The position numbers and the translations under genes were made by a program. The notes beneath the pieces are model-generated. The model saw only the letters and a list, made by a program, of their open reading frames with translations, was not told the DNA's origin and did not search any database. DNA of 64,000 nt from Mermis nigrescens (lineage: Eukaryota; Nematoda; Enoplea; Mermithida; Mermithidae): contig JAVLUZ010000728.1 in NCBI GenBank assembly GCA_036768485.1, forward strand, positions 304,744-368,743. Reading direction: 5' to 3'. Shown in pieces: positions 12,142-34,439 of this stretch; position 1 is the first letter of the stretch, and each line of letters opens with the position of its first letter.

Positions 12142-13254
12142 ATGAATTTATTAAAAATCGTTAAATTTTGTGAAGATCGTGATGGGTTGCCCAAGAAGCT
12201 GGCGGAACTGGAACTGGTTCCATGCACAGGCGAATACGACTGTCCAACATGTGGCGGGAAGATGGTTCTAATCAAGGATGAATCATGGGTGGATGGATGG
12301 ATATGGACGTGCCGGGCGCATGTGGCGGTCAGGAAACAGAAGGCGTGGCCTTGCAGAGTGCGAGTGGGCTTGCGCAAGCACACGTTTTTTGAGAATTTGA
12401 AGTTACCGATTTGGAGAGTTCTTGGATTTGTCAATTTCTGGGTCAGAGGTGCAGCTTTGCGATTTACTGGCGAACAGCTCGAAATGGCCCAAGAAAGTCT
12501 GGTCAACTGGTCATCTTACTGCCGGGAGGTTGTATTTGATGCATTCTTCACGAAACCAGAAAAACTCAGTGGCCCTGGGAAGGTCATTGAGATCGACGAA
12601 TCCAAATTTGGTAAGCAAAAATATCATAGGGGGCATTCTGTGGAGGGCCAATGGGTCTTTGGCGGCTATTAACAGGGCTCCGGTTGCATGTTTATGGTAG
12701 CCGTTGAGGCCCGGGGGTCTGACACACTGCTACCCGTAATCCAAGAGTGGATTAACCCGGGTACGACGATTCTCTCTGACTTTTGGAAGGCATATGACTG
12801 CTTGGGAGACCATGGCTACATTCACATGAAAGTAAACCATTCTCTGAATTTCAAAGATCCTGACACACAGACAAATACTAACGCCATTGAGTCCTCCTGG
12901 CGAGCAGCCAAGTCTAGTTTTGCATCGTCAGGGAGAATCAAAGCACATGTACCCGGTAATCTAGCTCGGTACATGTTCCAAAAGCGATGCAAGGAAATGC
13001 AACTCGATCGCATGGTCAAGTTTCTGCGGATGGCTGGGCAGCTGTACTGTACAATCCGTGTAAGCCCAGTGCACCACGATTTGACGAGGACAGGGACAGC
13101 CGCGAGGAATTGGAGGACAGTGACAGCCACGACGAATTGGAGTTTTAGTATAGTAAGTTGTGTTGAAAACATTTTTTCTGATCATTCAGTTCAGCTTAAG
13201 ATGGGCTTAGGCTTAGGCTTAGTTCTGTGCCTTCACATTTGTGCCAGGGGATGA
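12142..13254 (+). pseudogene. IS1595/ISXO2-type DDE transposase with one in-frame stop
   Basis: One reading frame runs from ATG 12142, broken only by TAA at 12670-12672, and continues in the same frame to 13254. The N-terminus has a zinc-ribbon-like CPTCGGKM and a later WTC. Then come RKHTFFENLKLPIW and the first catalytic-Asp block VIEIDESKFGKQKYHRG, with VEGQWVFGGY at the stop. After it come ILSDFWKAYDC (second Asp) and NHSLNFKDPDTQTNTNAIES, then SWRAAK (third acidic/Asn block). These are the hallmarks of the DDE_Tnp_IS1595 fold. The family usually continues GG-x-x-R/Q-G, so the stop replaces a single residue. The last 60 codons or so are probably not original. An M1 MITE (13232-13358) cuts into the 3' end. 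Likely a transposase that died recently. Confidence 0.8.
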
Positions 13255-13691: not shown

Positions 13692-15084
13692 GGCAGTAAT
13701 TATTTGCAGTTAACTGCAGGCAATATAGCACACAATGTAAAATTATATGCAGTCAAAAACCAGCGGCCTAGACTGCAGGCAATCTAGCACACAATGTAAA
13801 ATTATATGCAGTCAAAAACCAGCGGCCAAGACTGCAGGCAATCTAGCACACAATGTAAAATTATATGCAGTCAAAAACCAGCGGCCTAGACTGCAGGCAA
13901 TCTAGCACACAATGAAAAATTATATGCAGTCAAAAACCAGCGGCCTAGACTGCAGGCAATCTAGCACACAATGTAAAATTATATGCAGTCAAAAACCAGC
14001 GGCCTAGACTGCAGGCAATCTAGCACACAATGTAAAATTATATGCAGTCAAAAACCAGCGGCCTTGACTGCAGGCAATATAGCACAGAACATAAAATTAT
14101 ATGCAGTCAAAAACCAGCGGCCTAGACTGCAGGCAATCTAGCACACAATGCGATATTATATGCAGTCAAAAACCAGCGGCCTAGACTGCAGGCAATTTAG
14201 CACACAATGTGATATTATATGCAGTCAAGCTGAATGCTTATTAATATGGGGAGCTGGCGCTTCGCTCGCATTTCAACCTGTAGTAGATGGTTTTAGAAGG
14301 CATTTTTATTTGAAATGGTCTGGCAGATTTACTTTCTCACTGGGGAATGTTTTTTTGCGCTGCATGGGTAGCAGCTTCAATAGCTGCCCAGTCGCCCATT
14401 AGCGCATTTTGATGGGCCAGCGTAAGCTCTGGTTCTATGTGATAGATATTGAGTAGCTGTTGCTGTTCTTCTTGTCCTCATTCTGGAGAATTGTTGTATT
14501 ACTGTAGTAGAAATAAAATGCTTCATGAATATGTACGTACCTACAGGAAAGTACATAGGTGCATGCCTATATATTGAGTGTCTATATAGGTACTTTATTT
14601 TTAGCCACTTTTGCCATTTTCTTGGGTTTAAATGTAATTTTATAGCTGTTATTGTTGACAATTTCGATGAAATAAGGCTTTGTGAATGCTTTTTGGAATC
14701 CATATTTTAAATTGGAATGGTCATTGAAGCTTATAAGTAGTTAAGCCTGTAACCCTAGATCGCAACGTTATAGCATAGCCCATGTTATAACATAGGTGAG
14801 GACGTAAAAATCTGCGCCCTGGCTTTTCTCAAGGTGCAATGCTGTAGCATAGGCTGTGTTGTAGCATGGGGGCCGGCCCAAACCTGCTCGGGGAGGGGGC
14901 GCGCGCCAGCCCAGGGCCAGGGTCCCAGGGCCAGGGGAGGGAAATTTCCATGGGGGAAATTTCCCTGGGAAATCTTTGAAGAGGCGTAACTTTAGAATCA
15001 GCAGTTGGATCAGGCTGGAATTTTTAAGGTATGTTAGATATACGTTAGCTTTGATATGTACAAAATTTTAGCGAGCAGCCTACA

Positions 15085-16225: not shown

Positions 16226-17732
16226 AATCTTCATTTAATATGGCATTGCTCCAGGATTGCTGACAAATTTTGTAAAACACAAAAAACATGATAATTTTGC
16301 ATAGTCTATTCATATACTCTACAGTCTCTGATAAAATATGGCTAAATTTTGCATGACTCATTTGATTCATTTACTTTATGGAAAGAACTATGTTTGTTTC
16401 ACACGGTATTCGAAGAATTATATGACAGGCTGAAGCAAACCATACACAAATATCGATGAAATTCCATAGCTATGAGAAAAACACTAAGCCATTTGTGTAC
16501 GTGCAGAAAATACATGCAATTTTCCCAAATATAAATCTAATCAAGCATTTCATACTGTGAGGAACATGAAAATTTCAGCCTGATCCGACTGCTAATTCTA
16601 AAGTTACGCCTCTTCCGAAATTTCCCCAGGGAACATGAAATTTCCCCCATGGAAATTTCCCCCTGCCCTGGCCCTGGGCTTGGCGCGCGACCCCTCCCCG
16701 AGCAGGTTTGGGCAGGCCCCCATACTACAACACAGCCTATGCTACAGCATTGCGCCCTGAGAAAAGCCAGGGCGCAGATTTTTACGTCCTCGCTTATGTT
16801 ATAACATAGGCTATGTTATAACGTTGCGATCTAGGGACACAGGCTTAACTACTTATAAGCTTCAATGACCATTCCAATTTAAAATATGGATTCCAAAAAG
16901 CATTCACAAAGCCTTATTTCATCGAAATTGTCAACAATAACAGCCATAAAATTTCATTTAAACGCAAGAAAAGGGCAAAAGTGGCTAAAAATAAAGTACC
17001 TATATAGACACTCAAAATATAGGCATGCACCTATGTACTTTCCTGTAGGTATGTACATATTCTCGAAGCATTTTATTTCTACTACAGTAATACATTAATT
17101 CTCCAGAATGAGGACAAGAAGAACAGCAACAGCTACTCAATATCTATCATGTAGGACCAGAGCTTACACTGGCCCATCAAAATGCGCTAATGGGCGACTG
17201 GGCAGCTATTGAAGCTGCTACCCATGCAGCGCAAAAAAACATTCTCCAGTGAGAAAGTAAATCCGTCAGAACATTTCAAATAAAAGTGCCTTCTAAAACC
17301 ATCTACTACAGGTTGAAATGCGAGCGAAGCGCCAGCTGCCCATATCAATAAGCATTCAGCTTGACTGCATATAATATCACATTGTGTGCTAAATTGCCTG
17401 CAGTCTAGGCCGCTGGTTTTTGACTGCATATAATATCACATTGTGTGCTAGATTGCCTGCAGTCTAGGCCGCTGGTTTTTGACTGCATATAATTTTACGT
17501 TCTGTGCTATATTGCCTGCAGTCAAGGCCGCTGGTTTTTGACTGCATATAATTTTACATTGTGTGCTAGATTGCCTGCAGTCTAGGCCGCTGGTTTTTGA
17601 CTGCATATAATTTTACATTGTGTGCTAGATTGCCTGCAGTCTAGGCCGCTGGTTTTTGACTGCATATAATTTTACATTGTGTGTTATATTGCCTGCAGTT
17701 GACTGCAAATAATTACTGCCGAAATTCGGAAA

Positions 17733-18050
17733 ATGGATGTATTCTAGAATTCGCCCAAAATTTCGACTTGATTGTAAAAAGTGTTGTTTTGCTACTAGAT
17801 CAGCTAGAATTTGGAACGATCTTCCACAACATATTCGAAGTTCTCCAAATGTTGAGATATTTAAGAAAAATTTGAAAAGGTTGATTTCGGGGATTTTTTG
17901 ATGGAGCACACGTGAGCGCAATCTATTTGCCTGTGTGTCCACACATTTCGCATCACACTATGCTATTTTATTTTCCTTGCGACTTTGTTTTACCCTTGTT
18001 TTTTCCGAACAGAGTATTAGTATTAGTAATGCATAAAGCTAAAGCCACTA
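17733..18050 (+). pseudogene. 3' tail of a CR1/Jockey-like non-LTR retrotransposon
   Basis: In frame, FRLDCKKCCFATRSARIWND is followed by LPQHIRSSPNVEIFKKNLKR and LISGIF, with a stop at 17899-17901. This is the conserved C-terminal Trp-Asn-Asp-Leu-Pro tail of CR1/Jockey-type polymerases. The 3' UTR continues to a GTATTAGTATTAG tail near 18015-18028. The same tail and UTR are found inverted at 34440-34740. The upstream part is absent because the Foldback element adjoins it. Confidence 0.75.
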
Positions 18051-19506: not shown

Positions 19507-20189
19507 ATGTTAACAAAACAAAATGTCAACTCATATCAGAATTTTGTCTCTGATATTGACAAGCTGAAGCAGACTCTACTGCAAAATGAGTATCCCCTTG
19601 GCTTGATTGATAAGGTCATATCAGACTTTATGACAAAGGTGTATAATAAGAGTGATGAAATAAAAGTCGGTTGTGATAAATTATGCTAATCTCTTGTTTT
19701 GCCTTACGCTGGTGTGCAATGGCTACAATGTACGCAGCAGAATTCTAAAGCTTATATCTGCATTTTACCCTCAGATTAGAGTAAGATTTGTTTACAAACC
19801 TGTCATGTGTATAAGCCGGTTTTTCAAGAACAAGGATGCTGTATCTGCTAAGCTACTCTCAAATTTAGTATATAAGTATACGTGTCCTAGCTGTATGGCT
19901 AGTTACATTGGCGAAACTCGCCGACATTTTGGGAATAGAATTGCAGAGCATACTGGCATCTCATTTGCTACAGGAAAGCCAATTCAGGGTGATAGCTTAT
20001 CTGCTATTCACAAACATATCTCAAATAGCAATCATTCAATTACATCAGATTGCTTCAAGGTTATTAGTCGAGCATCCAACTCTTTTGATCTTTTAATCAA
20101 GGAGTCGTACTCGTTATACATAGCACGTGATCGTCCTATTCTCAACAATAATAATTTACTAAAATCCCACCTTTTTCATTTTCTTATAG
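19507..20189 (+). pseudogene. Penelope-like element, C-terminal part with GIY-YIG endonuclease
   Basis: The frame from 19507 contains DIDKLKQTLLQNEYPLGLID, the linker that follows the reverse transcriptase in Penelope-like elements. After a frameshift near 19680-19710 the protein continues VRSRILKLISAFYPQIRVRF, then FVYKPVMCISRFFKNKD. The GIY-YIG domain follows: YKYTCPSCMASYIGETRRHF, GNRIAEH, a conserved H-x-x-x-S-N-H stretch, KESYSLYI and RDRPILNNNN. The CxxC pair, the Y-IGET core, Arg and the late Glu are present. The RT core is missing. The gypsy element inserted just after the end of this domain; its outer flank resumes at 33807. Confidence 0.85.
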
Positions 20190-21426
20190 TGTTAATTAGA
20201 TGGGTTGATGGGAGTTGTGAAGGTAGGTACCGATAGCTAAACGGGCAGCATGCCGCCCCTATAGTTACCAAACCCACAAACACAAACCCAAACAACCCAA
20301 ATAATTACCTTCGGGAATTACTTAAGTACCTGGCTACTCTTAGCGCTGGTCAGGATGTTAAGGCAGTACGCCCGGTGTCACCCGTTGACCCTCAAAGTAC
20401 TTAATACCCTAAAACTCCTCGGACCTAGATTTGTCCGTACCTAGGGAGAATTAGGTACCTACGCTCTAACAATCCTACACAGCAGTACGTAAGCAACCCC
20501 GGAAATTAACCCTTAGGTCAGTTGACCTATTCAGGACCTAAAATATGAAATTCGCGAAAGCCTGAAATGATGTTATAGCCAGTGTACTTATGGCGTTTCT
20601 TTAACTTTCAATTTTGGTTCCAATAGCACAATACATATTGAATACAACAACTAAGAGCTCTAGCCCGGGCAGTCATTTTACGTAAAAATTATGTAATAAC
20701 TCTTATGATTTTTGGTTCCGAAACTTGAATAGATTCTTTCTAGAAAAGACGAAAAATAGTAAAATGTGATCACCTTGAATTTTACGACGAAATAAAATAT
20801 TTTATGAAATCGTCGAAAAGCCGGGCCGTCCAAACCGTTCCTTCTGCCTGCAGTATAATGCACTTCAAGGCAGGTAATAATGCTACGTTTATGTACAAGA
20901 AAAAACAACAAAATTGAACGGCTGGATACGACGAAAAGAAAGGAATAAAACAAAAAGACGAGCGCTGCTATACAAGCGTCGAAAACGGCCAAGAGAATCT
21001 TATAATGATTTCCTCTACTAAATTAATTACAGTATATCTTCAAATCAATAATATGCTTATAACGAAAAAGATTCGCACGTAGGCGGAGTCAAGGGGCGTT
21101 CCGATCTCAACACAGGCTTAACCTGATTAGCGGTCATGTCGCCTATGTTTTTAATGATAAAAGAAGGGGTCGTATAGTAATATCCACAAGATGGCTCACA
21201 TAGCATACCTCACGGGTATGTACGTGATTTGCCAATGGACCAATGGGCGCGTAGGGACTTTCGCGTCCAAGCGCCATGGCTAAAGGTGGGTGGTTAAATA
21301 GCGAAAGTTCGCCTCCTTCGGCTGGAAACGCCGGGAAAGATAATTAGGCGAATATTGGGCCAAAAACGATGCGGTCAACGGCGTTCCGCTCGATAACGCG
21401 AAACGCGTGTAGATACACCATCTACA
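20190..21426 (-). repeat. 3' LTR of the gypsy element
   Basis: 1237 bp. On the plus strand it starts TGTTAATTAGATGGG and ends ATACACCATCTACA. It matches 32570-33806 at a constant offset of 12380, with differences seen at 20193, 20199 and 20994. A 104-codon frame inside both LTRs (20678-20992) is duplicated only because the LTR is and shows no known domain. Confidence 0.95.
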
Positions 21427-21440
21427 CTCCTCCCCTCACC
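21427..21440 (-). other. Polypurine tract
   Basis: Read on the minus strand, GGTGAGGGGAGGAG abuts the 3' LTR start TGTAGA. That is the expected position and composition of the primer for plus-strand DNA synthesis. Confidence 0.8.
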
Positions 21441-21933
21441 GGGAAAAAATTCGGATCACGAGCCGAATTTTTTAATTGGAGGAAAGAGAAAAATGACCAA
21501 AAATTGAGTAAAAATTGTTGACGGATGTCAACTTGACATTTCGAAGTCAAATAGAATTTTTGGGCCCATTCCCTGTGGATAGGGGGAATAAAAATTTGAA
21601 TGAAAAGTATGGCGGCTGAAGCCATGACTGAGCCTCTGTCAAGTAGTGTTGAGAACGGAAGCTGAAAGATAAAAGATAAAATTTAAGTAGTTTTTAGATA
21701 AAATTTTAGATAAGGCCGAAAATATGTGAGCAAAAATGGAATTAAAACGAGATACCAATCAACGAGATTATAAGACGAGATAAAATGACGAGATTAAAAC
21801 ACGAGGAATGTTAAGGCACAAAAAACAATGAGAAGAAAAACAAGATTTTACGATAAGGCACGATAAAATTGACGCAAAACTGCTGGCCGCTCCGGCATCG
21901 ATCGCAGAGTTCAGTTCTATAAGTCAAGAAAAA
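21441..21933 (-). other. 3' untranslated region of the gypsy element
   Basis: About 490 bp between the third ORF's stop and the polypurine tract. It is AT-rich, with GATAAAA/GAGATTA-type repeats near 21666-21795. No further ORF of note. Confidence 0.6.
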
Positions 21934-24900
21934 TCAATGGCGACGTTTATAATCGGGCTTCGTAGTTGGGAAAAAACGTGGTCGGCGATCCGATCGACGT
22001 TGCGAAAAATCGCTAGTGTCACGATAATCGGAATCGCGACGCGATGACGAACGCTCAGTGCTGGTTGTGCTAGAACGCGGCTGCATTCGTTCGCGAAGAT
22101 GGCGATGTTGGTCATATGGCACGGAATCGTCCGATGGTGAACCGAAACCATAATAGATACGCGGTTGTCGCGGTGGAGATGGGCGACGGAAACCTCCAAA
22201 ACCATCAGTCGAACGCACCGGAGAAGCTGGGCGCGTGAATCCTCCAAAACCATCGTTCGAGTTAAACGGCAAATCCAACAAAGATGGTATTGGCTGGAGC
22301 TGATGCGGGCGATGGGTTGCCTGCGTATGCGACGGTTTGCTCGATGAAGGCTTGTGCTTCTGGGTCTGGGACTCAGGGCGCCTAGGATGGGAAGGAGAGG
22401 TATGGGGTTTCGGATGAGCCCTTGATGACTCCGACGGTCGTCGGTTGGCCATCGCCTGGGTCTCACGTCTTTCCTTTCTGCGATCATTTGCCAGGTAGGC
22501 TCTTTGGGTATGCTCAAGCTTTTTTCGGTCTCGACGACTTGCTCGTAGACGAGGGATGGCCTCATGGTAGGCTCGCAAACGTTCAAGATAAAGGTTTTGA
22601 TCGACCCGACGAACGTCAGATGAAACGACCAGTGAGCCGGGACGACGCGCGACATTGACGCGCGGCGGTGGGGGCATAGGGTCCGTTTCGCGTTCGGCTT
22701 TTTCAGTGGTCATGCGATCTCGGCGGGTATTAATTTGGGATTGCAGAGATAGGTCACGAACGTTGCGCCTCATCTTCGCACGAGGTCCGATCGGGCCTTG
22801 CGAAGGAGCAAGACGTTTCTGGGATTCGCTGTGTTGGGCTTGTCGACGTATTCGTTGCAGTTCGTGGGGCAACGTTTTGCGCAAATAATAAGAGGAATGC
22901 TGGCGGGATTTGTGACGGCCGAACTGGGCTGGGACAGTTAGTTCCGGGTCCGTCGCTTCACGAATTCGCTTGATATCGCGATGTAGGGCGACGGGATCGG
23001 TAATTTCCTCAGCTAACTCCGGAAATTCCGGAAATGCCTCTGTCGGAAATTCCGTATAGGTGGGGCCTCGGAATGCCGCAAGCATTAAACGTCGGATTTG
23101 TTCACACATACGCCAGGCGATTCCGGGATCGCCGTACCAGGCTGCAAAGGTGAAAAATCGTTGATCCATAAATCGCATGAGCGAAGTGGCTCGCATCACT
23201 TGCGGGGTAGCAAAAATGGGTTCGCGAATAAATGTCGAGTTGTATTCGCGTTCAAAGTCTTTGAACGCTTCGAACACGTCGATCATTTGGCGAAGGGTGA
23301 TGCAAAGGGGGGCCGTGTGATCAGGCTCCGGAATAATGCGATGTGGGAAAAGTTCGATGGGTAACGTGTATCCGCTACGTTCCACCATTTCAGCCGGGGT
23401 TATGAGATGGGGATGATTCAGCAAAAAGGGAATGCTAACTTCATATAGCATATAACCCGTCGTTATGAACAAGCGATTTCGGTTGAACAAGGGGTCCGGG
23501 TAAAACAACCTGTGAAAAACGCTAGGTTGCGTAATAAAATGGGGAGCAACCGCGTTTAGTTGGCGTTCCTGCTCTTCTTCTTCCGTGGGAACATTAGCTG
23601 AAATCATCGGGCGATCGGGGGTATTTGGAAGTTTGGCAAAACGCAAATATGTCGCGTAGAGCGAGTTGAAGTAAATTTGCGTGTCGTCGACCAAATGCTG
23701 GAAGATCGCATTGCCATCGTTGGTGCCAAGCCATTCACGAAAATTGTGCAAATTTTCGGGGGTGACACAGGATGGGCGCATTCGACGCAATTCATCCATG
23801 AACTCATGAAAGTGCGCCATGAATGCAACAGAACGACGCTGTTCTTCATCTCTTTGGGTAGGCAGCGCCTGTTCGACCGGCGGTGCTTGTTGGACCGGCG
23901 ATGGTTGGCGCAACTTAGTCGCAGTAGGTTGCGATTTGCGCGGAATTCGACTTGGTGGAAAAGGTTTAGCTACCGAGAATGGGAAAGCCATGGATGCCAT
24001 AATGCTCGAGACTTCGTGCGGGGCCAAACTAGTGTATTGTGGCTTTGCCGGAACAATACGGGCTTTAGGAGTCAAGACTGGGATACTAGACGTTGTCGCC
24101 GCTTGTGAAACAGAAGGCGCACTTTGGGTATCCATAGGCTGATCCAGCGGTATGCTGGTCACAGCCGTAGCTGCCACAGTTTCGACAGCTGGGGCTTGCA
24201 TTTCCACATCAGGCGGTGGGGTGGCCGCCGGGGGTAACGTTTGCAAGATCTGGTCGAAAATCTCTCGTTGCGTTGGAGTTTCGAACGGATCAGGATCGTC
24301 GACATCCAACACAATCATAGTAGGATCTTCGCCGTCCGACTCAGGTTCAGTACGGCGGTAATTTCTACGCTTGGCACGCTTGCATTTGTGCAAGTTTGGC
24401 GGGATTTTGGAAAGTTTGATGTACAGCGGTTCCTTCGGTGGCGCTGTTTGGATGGCCAACTCATCGCCTACGAAGGTGAAACCTGCAGGCACCACTTTAG
24501 GAGAAATTTTTCCCAAGTTTGGCGAATACAGGTCGATGAGTATGTAAACATCGAGGGATATGATGGGATCCAATGCCAGATATCGCAACATTTGATTGGT
24601 CAACGGCATATTCCAAGCTTGGCCAATTCGCGTGACTGCCAGGGGATCGGTTTCCATGTCGAAAAAGAATGACGCAAGCGTCTTTAAGCGATGGTTTCCC
24701 GCGCTAATGCGGTTTTCGATCATGAAAAATTGGGCCATTACAAGGGTATCGTGAATGGTGATTCGAAAAACGGAACGCGAGGGTGGCGAAGTATCACGAG
24801 ATCGCAAATAACGTGCGATTTCTCGAGTTCGCGGGCCATAGACGTGAAAATAGGCGATTTTATCGTTTCGCGGGTCATGGCAGGCTAGGGAGACATCTAG

Positions 24901-25539
24901 GAGCGATGCCTCTAGCAGTTCAGCCAACCCGAACGGGGGTTTGGGGAAATGAGAAATGTCCCAAACAAAGACATGACCTTGCACACTCGCAAGCTGGATA
25001 TAGCGCACGAATGGGCCATTGGATTCATAGTAGGTGGGATGGAATTGTTGCCAATATCGTTCCCATAAACGAAATTCCATGAACGAACGATCGTTCACAT
25101 GCTCACTGTCGAAGCCAAAAATAAATTGGCCGTTCAACGCATTTTGGGGTTGGAAAAGGGTAAGCATTGCGTTGAAGGACTGTTCATGGGTTTCAATAAA
25201 CGTGACACGCCGGATGGCGTTTTTGGGAACGTGAGGGACAACGAGGGGCAAACGATTCAGGTTCGTAACCCACCAACGTTTCTGGGCGGAGATACGTGCG
25301 TCATGATTGGGAAAATCGTCAATGGAGGGATAGGAAAAATTAGCAATAAGGGAATCCGCAATTTCGTGATAATGGAGTTGGAGGGGCAGCTCATAAGCGC
25401 GATACTGCTTAGCTGCAGCCGCCGCTTTCATGGCTGTGACGAATTCGCTGGCGTTGTGGGGTTCGTCGTCGTCGACGCGGAATGGCGGACGATCTGGGTC
25501 CAAAAGATCCTCTTTCGTGGGGGTACGTTGGCCAGCCAT
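21934..25539 (-). CDS. Third ORF of the gypsy element: DEDDy 3'-5' exonuclease-like protein, 1201 aa
   Basis: Residues about 135-340 show every block of the RNase D/WRN/MUT-7 exonuclease fold. Exo I is FIFGFDSEHV (Asp144, Glu146). Next comes the strand VRYIQLASVQGHVFVWDI. Exo II is around LLDVSLACHDPRNDKIAYF (candidate Asp226). Then HDTLVMAQFF, and Exo III is WNMPLTNQMLRYLALDP (Tyr320-x3-Asp324) followed by DVYILIDLY. All catalytic positions appear intact. By family knowledge such proteins remove nucleotides from 3' ends of RNA or DNA. Residues about 350-560 are Pro-rich and low-complexity. 560-890 looks globular but is unrecognised. The rest is Arg/Ser/Pro-rich. No signal peptide or membrane segment is seen, so it is not an envelope gene. 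The ATG overlaps the last 112 nt of pol in a different frame. A role in the element's life cycle is inferred from position and intactness. Confidence 0.85.
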   Translation of the reverse strand: MAGQRTPTKEDLLDPDRPPFRVDDDEPHNASEFVTAMKAAAAAKQYRAYELPLQLHYHEIADSLIANFSYPSIDDFPNHDARISAQKRWWVTNLNRLPLVVPHVPKNAIRRVTFIETHEQSFNAMLTLFQPQNALNGQFIFGFDSEHVNDRSFMEFRLWERYWQQFHPTYYESNGPFVRYIQLASVQGHVFVWDISHFPKPPFGLAELLEASLLDVSLACHDPRNDKIAYFHVYGPRTREIARYLRSRDTSPPSRSVFRITIHDTLVMAQFFMIENRISAGNHRLKTLASFFFDMETDPLAVTRIGQAWNMPLTNQMLRYLALDPIISLDVYILIDLYSPNLGKISPKVVPAGFTFVGDELAIQTAPPKEPLYIKLSKIPPNLHKCKRAKRRNYRRTEPESDGEDPTMIVLDVDDPDPFETPTQREIFDQILQTLPPAATPPPDVEMQAPAVETVAATAVTSIPLDQPMDTQSAPSVSQAATTSSIPVLTPKARIVPAKPQYTSLAPHEVSSIMASMAFPFSVAKPFPPSRIPRKSQPTATKLRQPSPVQQAPPVEQALPTQRDEEQRRSVAFMAHFHEFMDELRRMRPSCVTPENLHNFREWLGTNDGNAIFQHLVDDTQIYFNSLYATYLRFAKLPNTPDRPMISANVPTEEEEQERQLNAVAPHFITQPSVFHRLFYPDPLFNRNRLFITTGYMLYEVSIPFLLNHPHLITPAEMVERSGYTLPIELFPHRIIPEPDHTAPLCITLRQMIDVFEAFKDFEREYNSTFIREPIFATPQVMRATSLMRFMDQRFFTFAAWYGDPGIAWRMCEQIRRLMLAAFRGPTYTEFPTEAFPEFPELAEEITDPVALHRDIKRIREATDPELTVPAQFGRHKSRQHSSYYLRKTLPHELQRIRRQAQHSESQKRLAPSQGPIGPRAKMRRNVRDLSLQSQINTRRDRMTTEKAERETDPMPPPPRVNVARRPGSLVVSSDVRRVDQNLYLERLRAYHEAIPRLRASRRDRKKLEHTQRAYLANDRRKERRETQAMANRRPSESSRAHPKPHTSPSHPRRPESQTQKHKPSSSKPSHTQATHRPHQLQPIPSLLDLPFNSNDGFGGFTRPASPVRSTDGFGGFRRPSPPRQPRIYYGFGSPSDDSVPYDQHRHLRERMQPRSSTTSTERSSSRRDSDYRDTSDFSQRRSDRRPRFFPTTKPDYKRRH

Positions 25540-28500
25540 GGATCTGCAAAAGGGGAAACATTAGTTAACGGAACGGCATGTGCTGATTTAGAACCAGTTA
25601 ACAAACGTACAGGCGCGCAATCCCTCAAATTCCTTTCCCGGCCCGCTAATTCCGAGAAACTTATAACCACAGCCGGACACAGGGGTCGACGGGGTAGTTT
25701 CACTAACACAAAATCACCAGGTACATAGGCGTACTTTTCGGCAATGAGATCGGAATAAGGCAACTTAGGGGCAGGTAAGAGGCGATTGCGGTGCACAAGA
25801 TGTTCAATTAGGGAATTATGCAGATAAATGATTCGCGCTGTTTCAGGGGTGGGTAACGCGACAATACGATATGGGCCAATTTGTTTTGGCGAAAGCTTTC
25901 CGATTTCGGGTTGAATTACGGCCTTATTATTCAGATATACAATATCATTTAAGGCGAATTTACTTTCAGTGGTGGATTTATCGTATTGCTTCTTTTGCTG
26001 CTTACGCGCTTGAGCAAGATTTTTGCTAGCGATATCATGCAAATCAAGAAGCGTTAGTTTAAGGTCGGCGAGATATTTTTCAGCGACATGAGGCAGATTA
26101 GGATTTAATGTGAGATCGTTTAGTAGCTGAATATCAAGCGGAAACGATGGCTCACGGCCGTACAGCATCTCGAAGGGTGAAATATTCGTAGATGACTGCG
26201 GTGTTGCGCGATAAGCGAATAATGCGAACGGCAAGAACTGCTCCCAGTCATACTGATTTCTCGCGCTTAGTTTGGAAAGTCCATCAATGAGAGTGCGGTT
26301 ATAGCGTTCAACTAGCCCATCACACTGGGGGTGGTAGGGGGTAGTGAAGACTTTTTGGACGTTCAAAAGTTTGCAAATTTCCGAAACAAGGGAAGATGTA
26401 AAATTTGAACCTTGGTCGGTCAAAAATCGTTTCGGGACTCCATGTCTGGGGATCACTTCACGCAAGAGGAGATTTGCGATAGTTGATGCTTTTATATCAG
26501 ACACAGCAAACGCTTCGACGTACTTAGTAAAGTAGTCCATAAAGACAACGATTTGATCGTTGCCGGACGTCGAACGCGGCATATGGAGACAATCACACGC
26601 GATTAACTCGAAGGGTGATGAAACTTCGATGGGTTGCAGAGGTACCGAGGTGGGATTATTGGCTACCTTACGCTGCAAGCACACCTCACAGTTTTTACAC
26701 CATGCAAGCACATCATTCTCCATTCTCGGCCACCAGTAACGGAGCTGAATGGCGGGGAGGATTTTTCGCGCGGAAAAGTGGGCTCCAAAAATGGAATCAT
26801 GGAATTCGGTTAGGATGAAGCGACGCAGGGATTTAGGGATAACGAGTTGGTGAATTATGTTAGCTGCGCGCTTAGGCTGAAATCTGCGATATAAGATATC
26901 GTTTAGGATGAAAAATTCATCGCGACATTTTCGTGTTGTCAGATCGTTCAGCGATTCGCGAATTTTATTTAACTCGTCGTCTTGACGCTGTTCAGCAAGA
27001 AGTCTTGCAGGCGACAAGATTTCAGCTTTTTCAGCCTCCGAAAGCGTGATTCGTTCATAAAAAATCGGGGGGTGATCGTTTTGAGTCATTTGCGGTTTTG
27101 GCAAAATGGGTGTTTGTCGTATATTGGGAGGTTCGTTTTCATCGTCAGACTCAGACGCTTCAGATTCGAGGTTAGCAACGTTTGCAACGGGTTTACGTTC
27201 AAGCTTATAGCGTTGCTCGTCACGATCGTATTTGGGGTGACGGGATAATAAGTCGGCGGCACAGTTGTATGCGCCTGGAACGTATACAACCTCGTACTCG
27301 TATTCCTGTAACTTTAGACCCCAGCGTCGTAAACGACTGGAAGGATCTTTTACGTTCACGAGCCAAGTAAGGGCCTGATGGTCTGTTTCCACGATGAATT
27401 TTTTCCCATAGAGATAATGACGATAATGCTTTATTGCCCATACAACAGCCAAAGCCTCCTTTTCAGAGGTGGCATAATTGCATTCAGCCGAGTTTAAAAC
27501 ACGACTGGCATAGCCAAGGATAAATCGACTTTTTGACGGGAGGTGTTTTTGGGTCAAAATGGCACCTAACGCGTAATTACTTGCATCGGTGGTCAAAATA
27601 AATTGATGCTCAGCATCAAATTTTGGCAATTGCAAAATTGGGGGCGAAGTAAAAGCATCTTTTAACGATTGAAAAGCAGTCTGCTGTTCATCGGTCCATT
27701 TAAATTCGGTATCTTTTCGTAACAAACGAAAGAGTGGTTTCGCGATTTTCGCGAGATCTTTCACGAATTTCTTGAACCATTGGACAAGACCGAGAAATTT
27801 TTGCAGAGCTTTTACCGTTTTTGGGACAGGAAAATTGACTAAATCAGCAATTTTGGATAGGTCAGGGGCAATACCTAACGAGCTTATGCGATGGCCCAGA
27901 AACTGGACTTCCGCATGTGCTAAATGGCATTTTTCCGGTTTAACCCTTAAGTTCGCGTTTCGTAGTGCAGAAAAGACGTTTTCTAGATCTGTTAGATGTT
28001 CGGAAAACGTTCGCGAAAACACGATTATATCGTCGATATAAACGAGACAGGTTTTCCAGTTTAAACCAGAAAGAACGAGCTCCATGAGCCGTTGGAAATC
28101 GGCGGGGGCATTTTTTAAGCCAAAAGGTAAGACCTCAAATTCATAGTGGCCTACGGGACAGATAAAAGCGGTTTTTTCACGCGATTTATCGTCAAGGGGG
28201 ATCTGCCAATAACCAGATTTTAGATCTAGCGTACTAAAGTATGCTGCAGACCCGAGGGCATCAAAATAGTCATCAATTTGGGGTAGGGGATAAATTTGAG
28301 TTTTGGTTACATCATTTAAACGGCGGTAATCCACAACTGGGCGGAGGGAACCGTCCTTTTTTCCGATTAGAAAAAGAGGGCTGGCCCAGGGACTAGTGGT
28401 TGGTCGTATAACGTTTTCCGCGAGCATTTCGTTTATTACGCGTTGCATAGCTTGTCTTCGTGCATGCTCAACGCGGTAAGTTTTACCTACAACAGGGGAG

Positions 28501-31500
28501 TTATCACCTGTGTCAATATGATGCTTAACGAGCGGAGTGCGACCAAGTGGTTCGCCTTTTAACGCAAAGATGGAGTTATATTTATGGCATAAGTCGCGAA
28601 TTTGTTGCTGTTCTTTAGAGTTAACGATGCAACCTTGCAAAGCCTTATTTATGGAAGCGAAAAGTTCAGGTGACCTATCGTCAGAGACTGCGATATGGGA
28701 CACCACATCAACGTCTGGCGTTAAGGAACCAATCAGCTCTCCTGTGTCGATTTTAACAGGCGATTTAGAGATATTACAAAATCGCAAGGGAAAAACAGAA
28801 AGTGAAGTGTCGACAATAGCAGGGGCGACGAAAAGTGAACTTTTCTTCATAAAATTAGGATCGGGTTCGAAAAGTGCGACAGGGGCATCATAGGAACCGT
28901 GACTTATATAAGCAGGGGTAATTATTTCGTGACGCGGCAAAATAGTGATTGTTTCAGAAATTGAAACATGAACACAGATGGGGCACGCGATTTTAGCATT
29001 AGGGTTAGTGCGAAATTGCAATTTTTCGCTGGGCAATAAAAGGTTTAATTTTATACCGTTAATGAAAGCACAATCCTCAATGGGATTCACCCAGAGCAAT
29101 GCAGAACGGCAAAAATCAAAGCCAAGAAGCAAGTCTTCTGGCAAGTCATCAATTATGGAAACTAACGCGGAGGTAGTATAATCAGCGATAGTTATGGTCA
29201 TATTGAATTTGAAACGAACGACTGCTGTCATGTTACCTACACCGTGCACTATGTTAGAAGTCTGTTTCGGGGGTAGTTTGAAACCAAGTCTCAAAAATGC
29301 GGCCGTAGTCATCATAGTGACCTGCGAGCCAGTATCAATTAGTGCCGGGAGTTTAACACCATGGATTTCAGCCAAGATGGTGGGTAAATTGGTACCTGCA
29401 TGACTGACAATCGGAGTTTCAAAATCCTTATTTAGGGTAGGGGATGTTGCCAATTTTTCATAGACTGCAAGTCTTCGCTGCAATCTTTCGTACTCTTCCA
29501 AAAAATCTTGGGACGCAAAACTTTCTTCACGCTTTTTAGCCTCAGATACGTTTGAGGTAACCGTGTTTACGTCATTTTTGGACAAAAAGGGCGGTTGTGG
29601 AGGGGGTAAGGCTCCATTGGGATGGTAATCCGCTATGTGCGTGACGTTAGGGGGATACTGTTGTGGCGCAGAACGATACGATGAGTTATAAAACGTATTA
29701 CGTGGTTCTGGCGGGTAAGTCACGTATGGGTAAGATTGGCGATAGTCAGAACGTGGGGTACGATTATCGTAGCGCTGATTTTGAAAATTTTGACGATAAT
29801 GTGGCGCGGAATCATTATAATTTTGCCGAAACATTGGGCGCGAACGTCTCGAATCAAAACGTGCGTCCGAGTTTTGGGAAGTAGATTGGCGATTTTGGCT
29901 TTGATCGCGGTATCTAGTCTTAGATGATTGGCGATTATTATGATTATGACGCGACGATGAGCGATTACGATTATTCCAGGAACGCGACTGACTACGCTGA
30001 CGCATGGTGGAATCGCTTCTCTGTAGTTGCGCATTCTGCTCTGCTTTGCGTTGTCTTAATCGCTGGAAACATTCTTCATGCGTGTGACCCGCGCGTTTAC
30101 AAAACGTGCAAAATTTTTGCGCTGCTTCTTCATTTGCAGGGCGTTTTGAGCGACTGAAAGTTTTAGTGCGCGAGCGATCAGATTCGACATTACTCACGTG
30201 AAATGCAGGGTCCTTAGACAATGGGCCGCCAGTAGGGGTAGCTATCGCCGATACATAAGGAGTTGGAGCTTTTTGCTCTGTGAGTTGACGATTAGCATAC
30301 TCGGCACACTTAGCATTATGCAGAAATTCATGCAAAAGGGCTTCAGGCGCGCGCTGATAGGCTGCTGTTGAAATTTCGGGAAACAGGCCGCGTTTTAATT
30401 GATACCTAAGCGTCTTATTAAAACGTGGGGAATCAACCTCAAGATCAGGGTCTGCGCGCTTTAGCTCTCGATGAATCGCAAGAAAATATGCTTGGACAGA
30501 CTCATTAGGCTGTTGCTTGCGCTCAAGGAAACGGTCCATTAAAGTATCTTGATCGAGGGGACGAAACTCAGCGATCATAGCATACTTAGTTTTGGTATAG
30601 GAGGTTTGAATATCCGAGGGTAGGGATTCGTATAAGTTTAGGGCATAGTCGTCAAAAAATGAAGAGACAAATTCAGCTCTTTCCGCTTTGTCAATTTTGT
30701 ACACTTTTGCCAGTTGTTCAAATAATGCAAAAAATTTTCGTATGTCCGTTTTTTCGCCTTGAAAGGTTTTTCGACTAGCGACTGCGATATGCATTTGCTG
30801 TAAAAACGGTGCACGATTTACTGCATCAGCAAAAGATGAAACTTCATTTGACGATGATGATGAATCAGAATTATGGCGATGACGACGCGAGCTGCAGTGA
30901 CGATGCGAGCGATGCGAATGTTCGCGATGCGAATGTTCACGATGCGAAGATTCATGATGCGAATGATTAGAGTCCTCATCCGAGAACGTAACACGACGCT
31001 GGCTCGGGGGTTGGGAATTTACGGTGTCGTCGGTAGGTATGGGCTCGTTATTAGGATTTAATAAATTATCTTGCGCCGAAAAATTATCACTCACTTGCTG
31101 CGAAGCGTGTTGCATAGGCGCGCATTCCGCATTAGGAGGAAAATAATGCAAGGGCGGCGGTTTCAGGGATGAATGAGACACATTACTCGCAGAGTTAGGC
31201 ACAAACTCAGGAGCTAACTGATTTAATTGCCGCTGCGAAAAATGCGATGCATTAGGAGCGATTTCAGCAGATTGCTGGTTTAACGACCACTGCGAAATAT
31301 GCGCAGAATTGGGTAAAGTTTCCATAGGTATGGGTTTTTGGGCGCGCTGCTCGCAAATGCGTGAGGTAGGCGCGGAGTCATTAGAATGACGCTCACTCAT
31401 GGGTAATATGGGTGCAAAAGTCCTTTCGGACGCGAGTTCGACTCTAGGTTTAGGCTTATTAAGATGATGACGCAAAATAGGTGAGGGAGTGTCGGAATTT

Positions 31501-32072
31501 ATATGGATATTATCCGATGGTTCGATACGTCGTTTAGGGAATTCAATAGGAACATTAGTACTTACGTTTTCATCAGGGTGGGATCGCAGAGACTGAGTAG
31601 CCTCCGGGCGACCAGAAAACGTAGCCGTAAGACGTAGGGTATTCATTTCCTCACGAATTTGACGCATCTCTTGCGTATGTTGGGAGTTCATTTTCTGAAT
31701 ATTCTCGAGAATAGTCGAAAGAATTCGATCAGAATTGACCGAATTTGGACGATTTTCGTCCTCATTTAGTCCTTCAGAAGCGTTACTTTCCATATCAAGA
31801 GTATGGGTGGGTAAAACGGCTTCGTCTTCGGGTTTATTATTATCCGTGCGAAGATTAGGATCAGTATTTACGATCGTTTCGTCAGAAAGAATTTCGTCTG
31901 ATGTATCGACTGAATTGCCGGTTCCCATAGGAACGCTATTCGTTGTCGATTCATCATCAGAAGGAATGACGGAGGTATTATTCGCCGGGGAAGGTGATTT
32001 ATTATTATCGTTCGTCGCAGAACTGGTTTGTGGATTCTGCGTTTGGCGCGTCGAATGGGATGATGTGGGCAA
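25428..32072 (-). CDS. Gag-pro-pol polyprotein of the gypsy element, 2214 aa, single frame
   Basis: Gag: a disordered acidic N-terminus with a probable coiled coil (about 110-150), a His/Ser/Arg-rich patch near 371-400, a retrotrans_gag-like domain (about 410-560, with FLERKQQPNESVQAYFLAIH) and a CCHC knuckle CTFCKRAGHTHEEC near 655. Protease: ALIDTGSQVTMM near 911. Reverse transcriptase: SPWASPLFLIGKKDGSLRPV, FSTLDLKSGYWQIPL, LPFGLKNAPADFQRLM and VYIDDIIVFS (near 1344). RNase H: LTTDASNYALGAIL near 1490, then ATSEKEALAVVWAIKHYRHY and ETDHQAL. Integrase: an HHCC zinc finger near 1770-1800, catalytic Asp in ELIACDCLH (about 1825), Asp in FLTDQGSNFTS (about 1886) and Glu in HPQCDGLVERYN (about 1921), then a GPY/F module, IGPYRIVALP, near 2064. 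No frameshift or stop separates gag from pol, so all products must come from one precursor. The start is the first in-frame ATG after the leader. Confidence 0.95.
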   Translation of the reverse strand: MPTSSHSTRQTQNPQTSSATNDNNKSPSPANNTSVIPSDDESTTNSVPMGTGNSVDTSDEILSDETIVNTDPNLRTDNNKPEDEAVLPTHTLDMESNASEGLNEDENRPNSVNSDRILSTILENIQKMNSQHTQEMRQIREEMNTLRLTATFSGRPEATQSLRSHPDENVSTNVPIEFPKRRIEPSDNIHINSDTPSPILRHHLNKPKPRVELASERTFAPILPMSERHSNDSAPTSRICEQRAQKPIPMETLPNSAHISQWSLNQQSAEIAPNASHFSQRQLNQLAPEFVPNSASNVSHSSLKPPPLHYFPPNAECAPMQHASQQVSDNFSAQDNLLNPNNEPIPTDDTVNSQPPSQRRVTFSDEDSNHSHHESSHREHSHREHSHRSHRHCSSRRHRHNSDSSSSSNEVSSFADAVNRAPFLQQMHIAVASRKTFQGEKTDIRKFFALFEQLAKVYKIDKAERAEFVSSFFDDYALNLYESLPSDIQTSYTKTKYAMIAEFRPLDQDTLMDRFLERKQQPNESVQAYFLAIHRELKRADPDLEVDSPRFNKTLRYQLKRGLFPEISTAAYQRAPEALLHEFLHNAKCAEYANRQLTEQKAPTPYVSAIATPTGGPLSKDPAFHVSNVESDRSRTKTFSRSKRPANEEAAQKFCTFCKRAGHTHEECFQRLRQRKAEQNAQLQRSDSTMRQRSQSRSWNNRNRSSSRHNHNNRQSSKTRYRDQSQNRQSTSQNSDARFDSRRSRPMFRQNYNDSAPHYRQNFQNQRYDNRTPRSDYRQSYPYVTYPPEPRNTFYNSSYRSAPQQYPPNVTHIADYHPNGALPPPQPPFLSKNDVNTVTSNVSEAKKREESFASQDFLEEYERLQRRLAVYEKLATSPTLNKDFETPIVSHAGTNLPTILAEIHGVKLPALIDTGSQVTMMTTAAFLRLGFKLPPKQTSNIVHGVGNMTAVVRFKFNMTITIADYTTSALVSIIDDLPEDLLLGFDFCRSALLWVNPIEDCAFINGIKLNLLLPSEKLQFRTNPNAKIACPICVHVSISETITILPRHEIITPAYISHGSYDAPVALFEPDPNFMKKSSLFVAPAIVDTSLSVFPLRFCNISKSPVKIDTGELIGSLTPDVDVVSHIAVSDDRSPELFASINKALQGCIVNSKEQQQIRDLCHKYNSIFALKGEPLGRTPLVKHHIDTGDNSPVVGKTYRVEHARRQAMQRVINEMLAENVIRPTTSPWASPLFLIGKKDGSLRPVVDYRRLNDVTKTQIYPLPQIDDYFDALGSAAYFSTLDLKSGYWQIPLDDKSREKTAFICPVGHYEFEVLPFGLKNAPADFQRLMELVLSGLNWKTCLVYIDDIIVFSRTFSEHLTDLENVFSALRNANLRVKPEKCHLAHAEVQFLGHRISSLGIAPDLSKIADLVNFPVPKTVKALQKFLGLVQWFKKFVKDLAKIAKPLFRLLRKDTEFKWTDEQQTAFQSLKDAFTSPPILQLPKFDAEHQFILTTDASNYALGAILTQKHLPSKSRFILGYASRVLNSAECNYATSEKEALAVVWAIKHYRHYLYGKKFIVETDHQALTWLVNVKDPSSRLRRWGLKLQEYEYEVVYVPGAYNCAADLLSRHPKYDRDEQRYKLERKPVANVANLESEASESDDENEPPNIRQTPILPKPQMTQNDHPPIFYERITLSEAEKAEILSPARLLAEQRQDDELNKIRESLNDLTTRKCRDEFFILNDILYRRFQPKRAANIIHQLVIPKSLRRFILTEFHDSIFGAHFSARKILPAIQLRYWWPRMENDVLAWCKNCEVCLQRKVANNPTSVPLQPIEVSSPFELIACDCLHMPRSTSGNDQIVVFMDYFTKYVEAFAVSDIKASTIANLLLREVIPRHGVPKRFLTDQGSNFTSSLVSEICKLLNVQKVFTTPYHPQCDGLVERYNRTLIDGLSKLSARNQYDWEQFLPFALFAYRATPQSSTNISPFEMLYGREPSFPLDIQLLNDLTLNPNLPHVAEKYLADLKLTLLDLHDIASKNLAQARKQQKKQYDKSTTESKFALNDIVYLNNKAVIQPEIGKLSPKQIGPYRIVALPTPETARIIYLHNSLIEHLVHRNRLLPAPKLPYSDLIAEKYAYVPGDFVLVKLPRRPLCPAVVISFSELAGRERNLRDCAPVRLLTGSKSAHAVPLTNVSPFADPWLANVPPRKRIFWTQIVRHSASTTTNPTTPANSSQP
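25540..25562 (-). promoter_or_regulatory. Splice-acceptor-like site just before the exonuclease ORF
   Basis: Minus-strand TTTCCCCTTTTGCAG is followed by ATCC and then the ORF's ATG (25539). A pyrimidine run ending in CAG 4 nt before a start codon would suit cis- or trans-splicing to make a subgenomic mRNA for the downstream ORF. This is inference only. A donor-like GGTAAGA lies in the leader at about 32107, but the ATG before that donor would join to pol's frame, not to this ORF's. Confidence 0.35.
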
Positions 32073-32569
32073 TTTTTTAGCCGGGGAGTGCGAAGAATTT
32101 TCTTACCACCCATTTTTCAAAATGGAACGTGAGGTAAAAGAAAATTTTGGCAAAAATCAACTATCGTTTGGAGCCAAAAAAAATTTTTTTCGAATCTGAC
32201 CCCTTAGGAAAGAGGTTTTTCGAGAAACGTAATATGAAAACGTAATTCGACCTGCCAAACGAGCAAGAGTTACGAGTATAAGCGGGGCGAAAGGCGTATA
32301 AGTGTGGCGAAAAATGAGGATTAGTCACCTTTAGGTATAGAAAAATACCAGCGACGTTACCACAAATACACAAAGGATTTGCCACGAACGCTTAACTTAA
32401 TTGCGCACTGCCTCGACGCGGACGAGATGACAAAAAACACGGGCGAAATAATACACATCATTAGATGGCCAAAAATAATTTATTTTTGGAAAGAAAAAAG
32501 ATAGGTAGTTAATAATAATGACTGCGCCGGGTCGGTTGTCGCGAGCAACCTTGAAGTGGGACTAACCAA
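32073..32569 (-). other. 5' leader of the gypsy element, with primer-binding site
   Basis: Immediately inside the 5' LTR the minus strand reads T then TGGTTAGTCCCACTTCAAGG (about 32549-32568). A TGG directly after the LTR is the usual start of a tRNA primer-binding site. I cannot name the tRNA. The rest of the leader is untranslated and probably carries the packaging signal. A small alternative frame (31868-32113) is not convincing. Confidence 0.65.
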
Positions 32570-33806
32570 TGTAAATTAAATGGGTTGATGGGAGTTGTGA
32601 AGGTAGGTACCGATAGCTAAACGGGCAGCATGCCGCCCCTATAGTTACCAAACCCACAAACACAAACCCAAACAACCCAAATAATTACCTTCGGGAATTA
32701 CTTAAGTACCTGGCTACTCTTAGCGCTGGTCAGGATGTTAAGGCAGTACGCCCGGTGTCACCCGTTGACCCTCAAAGTACTTAATACCCTAAAACTCCTC
32801 GGACCTAGATTTGTCCGTACCTAGGGAGAATTAGGTACCTACGCTCTAACAATCCTACACAGCAGTACGTAAGCAACCCCGGAAATTAACCCTTAGGTCA
32901 GTTGACCTATTCAGGACCTAAAATATGAAATTCGCGAAAGCCTGAAATGATGTTATAGCCAGTGTACTTATGGCGTTTCTTTAACTTTCAATTTTGGTTC
33001 CAATAGCACAATACATATTGAATACAACAACTAAGAGCTCTAGCCCGGGCAGTCATTTTACGTAAAAATTATGTAATAACTCTTATGATTTTTGGTTCCG
33101 AAACTTGAATAGATTCTTTCTAGAAAAGACGAAAAATAGTAAAATGTGATCACCTTGAATTTTACGACGAAATAAAATATTTTATGAAATCGTCGAAAAG
33201 CCGGGCCGTCCAAACCGTTCCTTCTGCCTGCAGTATAATGCACTTCAAGGCAGGTAATAATGCTACGTTTATGTACAAGAAAAAACAACAAAATTGAACG
33301 GCTGGATACGACGAAAAGAAAGGAATAAAACAAAAAGACGAGCGCTGCTATACAAGCGTCGAAAACGGCCAAGCGAATCTTATAATGATTTCCTCTACTA
33401 AATTAATTACAGTATATCTTCAAATCAATAATATGCTTATAACGAAAAAGATTCGCACGTAGGCGGAGTCAAGGGGCGTTCCGATCTCAACACAGGCTTA
33501 ACCTGATTAGCGGTCATGTCGCCTATGTTTTTAATGATAAAAGAAGGGGTCGTATAGTAATATCCACAAGATGGCTCACATAGCATACCTCACGGGTATG
33601 TACGTGATTTGCCAATGGACCAATGGGCGCGTAGGGACTTTCGCGTCCAAGCGCCATGGCTAAAGGTGGGTGGTTAAATAGCGAAAGTTCGCCTCCTTCG
33701 GCTGGAAACGCCGGGAAAGATAATTAGGCGAATATTGGGCCAAAAACGATGCGGTCAACGGCGTTCCGCTCGATAACGCGAAACGCGTGTAGATACACCA
33801 TCTACA
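32570..33806 (-). repeat. 5' LTR of the gypsy element
   Basis: 1237 bp, starting TGTAAATTAAATGGG on the plus strand and ending ATACACCATCTACA. Followed by ATAG (33807-33810), the second copy of the target duplication. It should hold the promoter for minus-strand transcription. A TTATAAGATTC on that strand near 33375-33385 could be a TATA element. Confidence 0.95.
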
Positions 33807-34439
33807 ATAGGTAGTTTAAAATCTTTTATAATTCTCTTCATAATTCAATGGTATGTTTAAACTTTAAGTTTCTCATGGTTTACAACTCTCGCTTAACAAG
33901 CTCATTTTTCAAAACTTTAACAAAATCACCCAAAATTATACTCTGTTTCACACAAGTTCAGTCATAAATTTTAAAACCACCTCCGACGATATGCTGACAG
34001 ATTGCGATTATAAAATTGATCAGATGTATAATTATCGTAACCCTCGGCTTACTGTCGATGAGAATTCTTAGAATTTATGCACGAAGTTATGTGAAACAGA
34101 CCATAACGACTCGCTTATTTACAAAAGTTCAGGATATGCTAAAAAATCTTCTTTATAACATATAAATAATGAAAAAGCCCGAAATTATGAGCTTTAAAAC
34201 AATCAATTGAATGTCTGTTAACTATGAGCAATGCAAAACAGCTGCAGACGAATAGTGGTTAAATAACAAATTATAAGGAAATTGATGTGGAGATCGAAAT
34301 ATATTAGTCTATTTTTATAACCTAATGCATGAAATCGCACGGTAGGCAAATGTCTGATTACTGTAATACCTGATTTTTTCCGCTGTGCGACGGAGTAAGG
34401 AGTGACCCGAGTCGGCGCTGAGTAGTGAAAAAATTTAAA
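33807..34439. other. Right flank of the gypsy insertion
   Basis: This is the continuation of the target DNA after ATAG and probably the 3' end of the Penelope-like element (33807 to about 33890). The rest is AT-rich with no recognisable gene. GTGAAACAGACC and TTACAGTAATA phrases recur in other spacers of the window. Confidence 0.4.

Follow-up and report, generated by a model that had tools for sequence, protein, structure and literature searches.

Bdelloid rotifers harbor two groups of long terminal repeat (LTR) elements, Juno and Vesta, whose third open reading frames (ORF3s) encode DEDDy exonucleases acquired at least twice, as described in 2017 in the passages of PMC5408684 on which we draw; for every paper cited here, the comparison relates to parts of its text. 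The Athena elements share DEDDy ORFs with Juno and Vesta, and 3'-end processing was suggested as a role (PMC5408684). Both types of role, trimming of nucleic acids that belong to the element itself and interference with silencing, are mentioned in that source, which also found no significant departure from neutrality in the intragenomic evolution of the rotifer extra ORFs (PMC5408684). A DnaQ-like exonuclease is listed among well-known accessory domains (PMC6338049). Here we describe a 64,000-nucleotide stretch of DNA from the nematode Mermis nigrescens (the window), which forms the end of the 368,743-base contig JAVLUZ010000728.1 in an assembly of 524 Mb and 860 contigs. One LTR element spans positions 20190-33806 of its minus strand, and the gene following gag-pol, ORF2, very probably carries a DEDDy-type domain.

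The explanation that we favor overall, and consider moderately probable, is a recent gypsy element whose second gene specifies a DEDDy exonuclease, produced from a spliced message and serving in auxiliary 3'-end trimming. A first-pass annotation of this DNA had supposed that no LTR element with such an arrangement was described, a view that the Juno and Vesta ORF3s and the known accessory domain contradict (PMC5408684, PMC6338049). Judged against open-licence papers, the element is a distinct new example of a DEDDy-like ORF in an LTR element, and not the first.

ORF2 and its exonuclease-like domain

Our analysis bore out the unbroken 1,201-codon frame after pol that the first-pass annotation had reported: it contains no internal stops, versus 25 to 63 in the remaining five frames of the same stretch. 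ORF2 lies in a different frame from gag-pol and overlaps its last 112 bases. Because gag and pol occupy a single shared frame, the extra ORF counts as the second, and not as the third as previously proposed. With residues numbered from the ORF2 ATG (M = 1), the Exo I DxE, Exo II Asp and Exo III Y-x3-D motifs that mark DEDDy enzymes occur in order in both subfamilies of copies, A and B, and the IQLA and HDT landmarks sit between them in the order expected, so that all the landmarks first read from the sequence are present.

Between the subfamilies, identity per 50 aa is 68-76% in aa 101-350 and 64-80% in aa 801-1000 (numbered from the second residue), and falls to 32-64% in the linker and tail. 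The slice 22525-23856, containing the second conserved region, gave no Pfam row at E <= 1. On this reading, the ORF2 protein would join a DEDDy 3'-5' exonuclease domain of the RNase D/WRN kind to the second conserved region, with a basic tail at its C-terminus.

Profile comparisons supported the domain assignment to differing degrees. With hhalign, none of 1,000 shuffles reached the score of domain profile A2 against 11 cellular sequences, and none of 400 did so against each of three further sets, namely the 11 sequences realigned, 28 proteins and 39 sequences; the 28 proteins were chosen by hand for diversity among 120 listed of 1,661 matches. Our second structure model, whose fold derives in part from cellular rows, resembles cellular DEDDy folds, with 11-19% identity over the listed alignments.

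A series of results weighs against this assignment. PF01612 matches the complete ORF2 protein at E = 0.065 and the domain at 0.0046, the latter with 17.2 bits versus a gathering cut-off of 23.6; because of this shortfall, we call the domain DEDDy-like and not an established Pfam member. Three subfamily B domains lack any Pfam row at E <= 1, and other window ORFs also gave Pfam rows at 0.003-0.006, which we judged to be chance. The hhalign score of A2 was reached by 8 of 400 shuffles against 19 sequences (45% identity filter), and by 61 of 1,000 against the listed matches of at least 170 aa together with the 11 cellular sequences. In plain hidden Markov model (HMM) searches with the four sets that had been used for the runs of 400 shuffles, 0, 11, 2 and 1 of 2,000 shuffles scored as high as the window domain, up to 11 thus beating it; with the listed matches of at least 170 aa plus the 11, shuffles outscored it in 7 of 2,000 cases. 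The subfamily B copy L017 scored below the window domain in the searches with the four sets (0.5 to -1.6 bits). The PDB, searched by phmmer and by profile, gave no match. In the protein database, none of 7,992 scored candidates matched full ORF2 at E <= 0.01 and none of 2,400 matched A2 at E <= 0.1, but our impression is that this database holds few eukaryote proteins, so that absence from it weighs little. NCBIfam yielded nothing beyond a DEDD exonuclease model for two subfamily B domains (E 0.18 and 0.15) and had no row for the window domain. PHROGs returned two rows of unknown function (E 0.11 and 0.21), a PADLOC search found no relative, and none of 63 pattern matches in IMG/VR was confirmed. 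The first structure model, built from family rows only, was useless (predicted local distance difference test score, pLDDT, 36), while the fold of the second is partly due to its 28 cellular rows and leaves 75 residues with pLDDT < 50.

Sequence alone does not decide the DEDDy match, to which the profile shuffles, the motif order and the structure model each add with mixed strength. The family assignment proposed in the first-pass annotation is supported by the motifs, by most shuffle tests and, tentatively and with the caveat given, by the fold; it fails on Pfam, where the score lies below the cut-off and three B domains have no row.

The position of ORF2 downstream of pol would suit an env-like or structural protein unrelated to DEDDy enzymes, its motif order being coincidental, and the low Pfam score and the poor profile scores against certain RNase D sets point the same way. 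However, the strongest mean hydropathy over 19 residues is 1.49 in A and 1.52 in B, in both cases within the exonuclease-like domain, and by this simple hydropathy measure no transmembrane anchor of classical env was found in ORF2 of either subfamily. The proteins contain 5 and 8 Cys, and three glycosylation-type sites each. As no segment attains membrane-anchor hydrophobicity, env is unlikely, and we rejected this identity. The ordered invariant residues in A and B, most shuffle tests and the fold match also speak against an env-like or structural origin, which we regard as very improbable.

Copies, selection and catalytic residues

The first-pass annotation had stated that absence of the ORF from all other copies would refute its reading. 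Our search of the genome for ORF2 yielded 52 match places, a lower bound, with 39 of 3,643 candidates scored. After merging the pieces of each copy, our own tally gives at least 37 sites in two subfamilies, 18 in A and 19 in B. Some of these are probably the two haplotypes of one site, as suggested by contigs C315 and C692, which are near-equal in size and have identical ORF2s; likewise, copy L001 is the likely second haplotype of the window copy, L002. Subfamily A copies show 95-100% identity, apart from one decayed copy at 88%, and subfamily B copies 49-60% over their main pieces. The window copy has an unbroken ORF2, as do L017 and L018 of subfamily B.

In subfamily B, ORF2 is under purifying selection, with a ratio of nonsynonymous to synonymous divergence (dN/dS) of 0.10-0.20. 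Between L017 and L019, dN is 0.032 and dS 0.268 in the domain (0.035 and 0.277 over aa 40-1000), and differences at the three codon positions number 97, 64 and 214 over 1,148 codons; two further B pairs gave dN/dS of 0.10 and 0.20 in the domain. Between A and B, the domain dN is 0.22 and dS is saturated. The dN/dS comparison called for earlier thus shows purifying selection in B; changes within A are too few to reveal selection, which is a weakness of our interpretation: L002 and L006 (dN 0.0050, dS 0.0060) differ by 15 changes in 961 codons, 11 residues being altered, and L002 and L004 by 10 and 6. Its retention in two subfamilies, together with the selection in B, indicates that ORF2 is more than a chance reading frame.

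Of the 31 loci examined, 23 retain the full set of five catalytic residues, among them the window copy, L017 and L018. On the opposing side, Exo II is Asn in the other 8, all of them in subfamily B, and L028 has lost more. The GAT to AAT change follows a C, and thus lies in a CpG context. In 14 B copies (L017-L029 and L031), C>T/G>A differences at CpG exceed the share of CpG among the bases: they range from 8 of 21 (L018) to 54 of 74 (L024), while CpG bases make up 520 of 2,900. Asp and Asn copies are adjacent on the tree (L018/L026 and L020/L025, with weak support also L021/L027). Because of these neighbors and the CpG-type excess, decay after insertion can account for most Asn cases; the Asn lineage of L019 and L023 could still be functional. 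The CpG enrichment itself may reflect host CpG methylation, although the CpG ratio is not low (1.03 in the window, 1.35 in the element), which speaks against strong methylation.

Another possibility would be that the DEDD fold is kept mainly for RNA binding, and that the protein packages or exports element RNA, like the CERV protein at the same position in the Cer1 element. The intact catalytic residues, also in B copies with full-length ORF2, the scattering of the Asn copies on the tree, and the CpG context of the codon with its excess of CpG-type changes run counter to this idea. We rejected an inactive RNA-binding derivative as the principal interpretation and retained it as a rival, albeit an unlikely one.

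The MGGKK gag start conserved in subfamily B stands in another frame in the window copy; among 7 A copies examined, it shares the gag frame in 2 and lies outside it in 5, the window copy included, a shift that may be biology or assembly error. In six A copies on different contigs, comprising L035 and the 5' parts L046-L050 (each 99.94-99.96% identical to L035 over ~8.1 kb), the frame breaks off between protease and reverse transcriptase, at residues common to all six, where the window copy is open. Five of the six regain the frame at one shared position, L050 having additional breaks, and the ORF2s of these elements (L005-L010) have an altered C-terminal frame in common. Provided that the break is genuine and that these are independent copies, the six multiplied in trans; recent multiplication of this kind, haplotype duplicates or assembly error may explain them.

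The element, its expression and its surroundings

The element (Table 1) is an LTR retrotransposon of Ty3/gypsy type that was inserted recently; the first-pass annotation, too, had read it as a gypsy element. Its two LTRs begin with TG and end with CA, a short target duplication flanks it, and Pfam places its gag-pol domains in the gypsy order of protease, reverse transcriptase, RNase H and integrase. The 14 Pfam rows of gag-pol at E <= 1 include no dUTPase, env or chromodomain family. Read by eye, the end of the integrase shows GPYRI and gag contains one CX2CX4HX4C motif. The pol and ORF2 frames of the window copy are open throughout.

Table 1. Features of the Mermis nigrescens element, in window coordinates
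Feature	Position	Strand	Description and basis
5' LTR	32570..33806	-	1,237 bp, TG...CA ends; 1,234/1,237 bases identical to 3' LTR
3' LTR	20190..21426	-	1,237 bp; 3 positions differ from 5' LTR
Target-site duplication ATAG, left copy	20186..20189	.	Flank sequence
Target-site duplication ATAG, right copy	33807..33810	.	Flank sequence
Polypurine-tract candidate	21427..21440	-	Purine-rich, adjoining 3' LTR; sequence reading
gag-pol open frame	25428..32102	-	Stop to stop, 2,224 aa: gag, aspartic protease, reverse transcriptase, RNase H, integrase; ORF list and Pfam
Candidate splice acceptor	25544..25570	-	Branch-point-like TTAACTAA, pyrimidine tract, CAG end 4 bases before ORF2 ATG; copy scan
ORF2	21934..25539	-	1,201 codons + stop; ATG 25539, stop 21936-21934; kept in other copies
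DEDDy-type exonuclease-like domain, aa 96-386	24382..25254	-	Pfam, profile-profile, motif order, structure model
Exo I, D144-x-E146 (FDSEH)	25102..25110	-	Alignment
Exo II Asp candidate, D226 (H-x4-D)	24862..24864	-	Alignment; Asn in 8/31 loci
Exo III, Y320-x3-D324	24568..24582	-	Alignment
Second conserved region of ORF2, aa 652-1004	22528..23586	-	A/B identity 54-80% per 50 aa
C-terminal tail	21937..22527	-	Basic, Arg/Lys-, Ser-, Pro-rich, low conservation; sequence and A/B comparison

The acceptor-like sequence before the ORF2 ATG suggests a spliced message, and retroviral env is made from a spliced message. All 7 copies scanned (3 A, 4 B) have this candidate with small differences, and its region also encodes the end of gag-pol. 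A possible donor is a GTAAG where gag starts, conserved in all 4 copies examined for it, but joining there would put an upstream ATG out of the ORF2 frame. The ORF2 protein would be translated from a spliced subgenomic message formed with the acceptor just upstream of its ATG, and may act as an auxiliary factor in replication, trimming the RNA or cDNA of the element itself at the 3' end. We put forward this self-directed 3'-end processing tentatively.

Alternatively, the enzyme might be directed at the host, degrading or over-trimming small RNAs or competing with Nibbler/MUT-7-like factors, and thereby weakening silencing; if true, the retroelement would encode an enzyme that trims or degrades small RNAs. 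However, the gag windows diverge between A and B about equally fast (53-78% identity), one fold serves many jobs, and the first role proposed in the cited part of PMC5408684 is to process element RNAs at their 3' ends. The pol windows of aa 901-2000 agree at 85-99% between A and B. We consider a host target unlikely and give precedence to self-directed processing.

The surroundings of the element contain further repeats. The frame of a plus-strand ORF at 19664-20236, which we take to resemble the GIY-YIG endonuclease end of a Penelope-like element (its Pfam row was judged to be chance), continues into the 3' LTR at 20190, so that this ORF may be where the gypsy element inserted. Inverted repeat pieces at 17757-17990 and 34489-34724 (90-93%, ~16.5 kb apart) flank the insertion. 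At 12142-13254 (+), two adjacent in-frame ORFs are separated by a stop, the second matching an IS1595/ISXO2-like transposase domain (E 2.2e-13); this is presumably a Merlin-type DNA transposon candidate. A long inverted repeat at 13692-14908 / 16681-17720 (1,019-nt arms, 96%) carries 59-bp tandem units in each arm and further tandem arrays between the arms, and at 58616-63435, near the contig end, a 177-bp unit with strong GC skew is repeated in tandem about 27 times. ARAGORN (bacterial code) and Rfam gave no match within the window, and neither Rfam nor a COX1 motif scan gave one in the first 6-9 kb of four contigs.

Relation to known systems

From rotifers alone, DEDDy ORFs could pass for a local curiosity. 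An LTR element that lacks dUTPase and carries the same kind of ORF, at dN/dS 0.10-0.20 in one of its subfamilies, would suggest repeated capture of the enzyme and a useful job for it in the retroelement cycle, and the role of non-env genes after pol becomes testable by simple biochemistry. A more specific scenario appears distinctly unlikely: a gypsy lineage outside Juno/Vesta would have acquired its DEDDy exonuclease in a separate capture, joined it to a new domain and, under purifying selection, retained it to defeat host small-RNA silencing.

The Mermis element resembles Juno and Vesta in being an LTR element with the order protease, reverse transcriptase, RNase H, integrase, and, subject to the caveats on the domain, in having after pol an RNase D-like DEDDy ORF instead of env (PMC5408684). 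In contrast, these rotifer elements have a dUTPase between protease and reverse transcriptase, for which we found no match here, LTRs of 159-551 bp in the bdelloid families versus 1,237 bp, and a DEDD to DEED change where the Mermis domain retains D-E-D-D plus Tyr (PMC5408684). The length of ORF2, 1,201 aa, with its second conserved region, is a further difference. The bdelloid Athena/Terminon elements are likewise retroelements with a DEDDy 3'-exonuclease ORF, but they belong to another class, being Penelope-like and telomeric with many ORFs (PMC5408684, PMC6431247).

Cer1 of C. elegans is also a Gypsy/Ty3 element, with a polyprotein of comparable length (2,272 aa) and a non-env protein, CERV, encoded after pol (PMC10309623). 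CERV differs in its size of 517 aa, in being spliced with gag exons and in having no obvious homology beyond nematodes according to the cited part of that source; its message is spliced (PMC10309623), and that of ORF2 would be too, to judge from the acceptor-like sequence. With the cellular RNase D, WRN, Nibbler (MUT-7) and Rrp6 enzymes, the ORF2 domain shares the order of Exo I, II and III and, with the caveat on the structure model, possibly the fold. It differs from them by the low identity over the listed fold alignments (11-19%), by two inserts of ~20 residues relative to the cellular rows, and by its fusion to a conserved C-terminal region that has no Pfam match.
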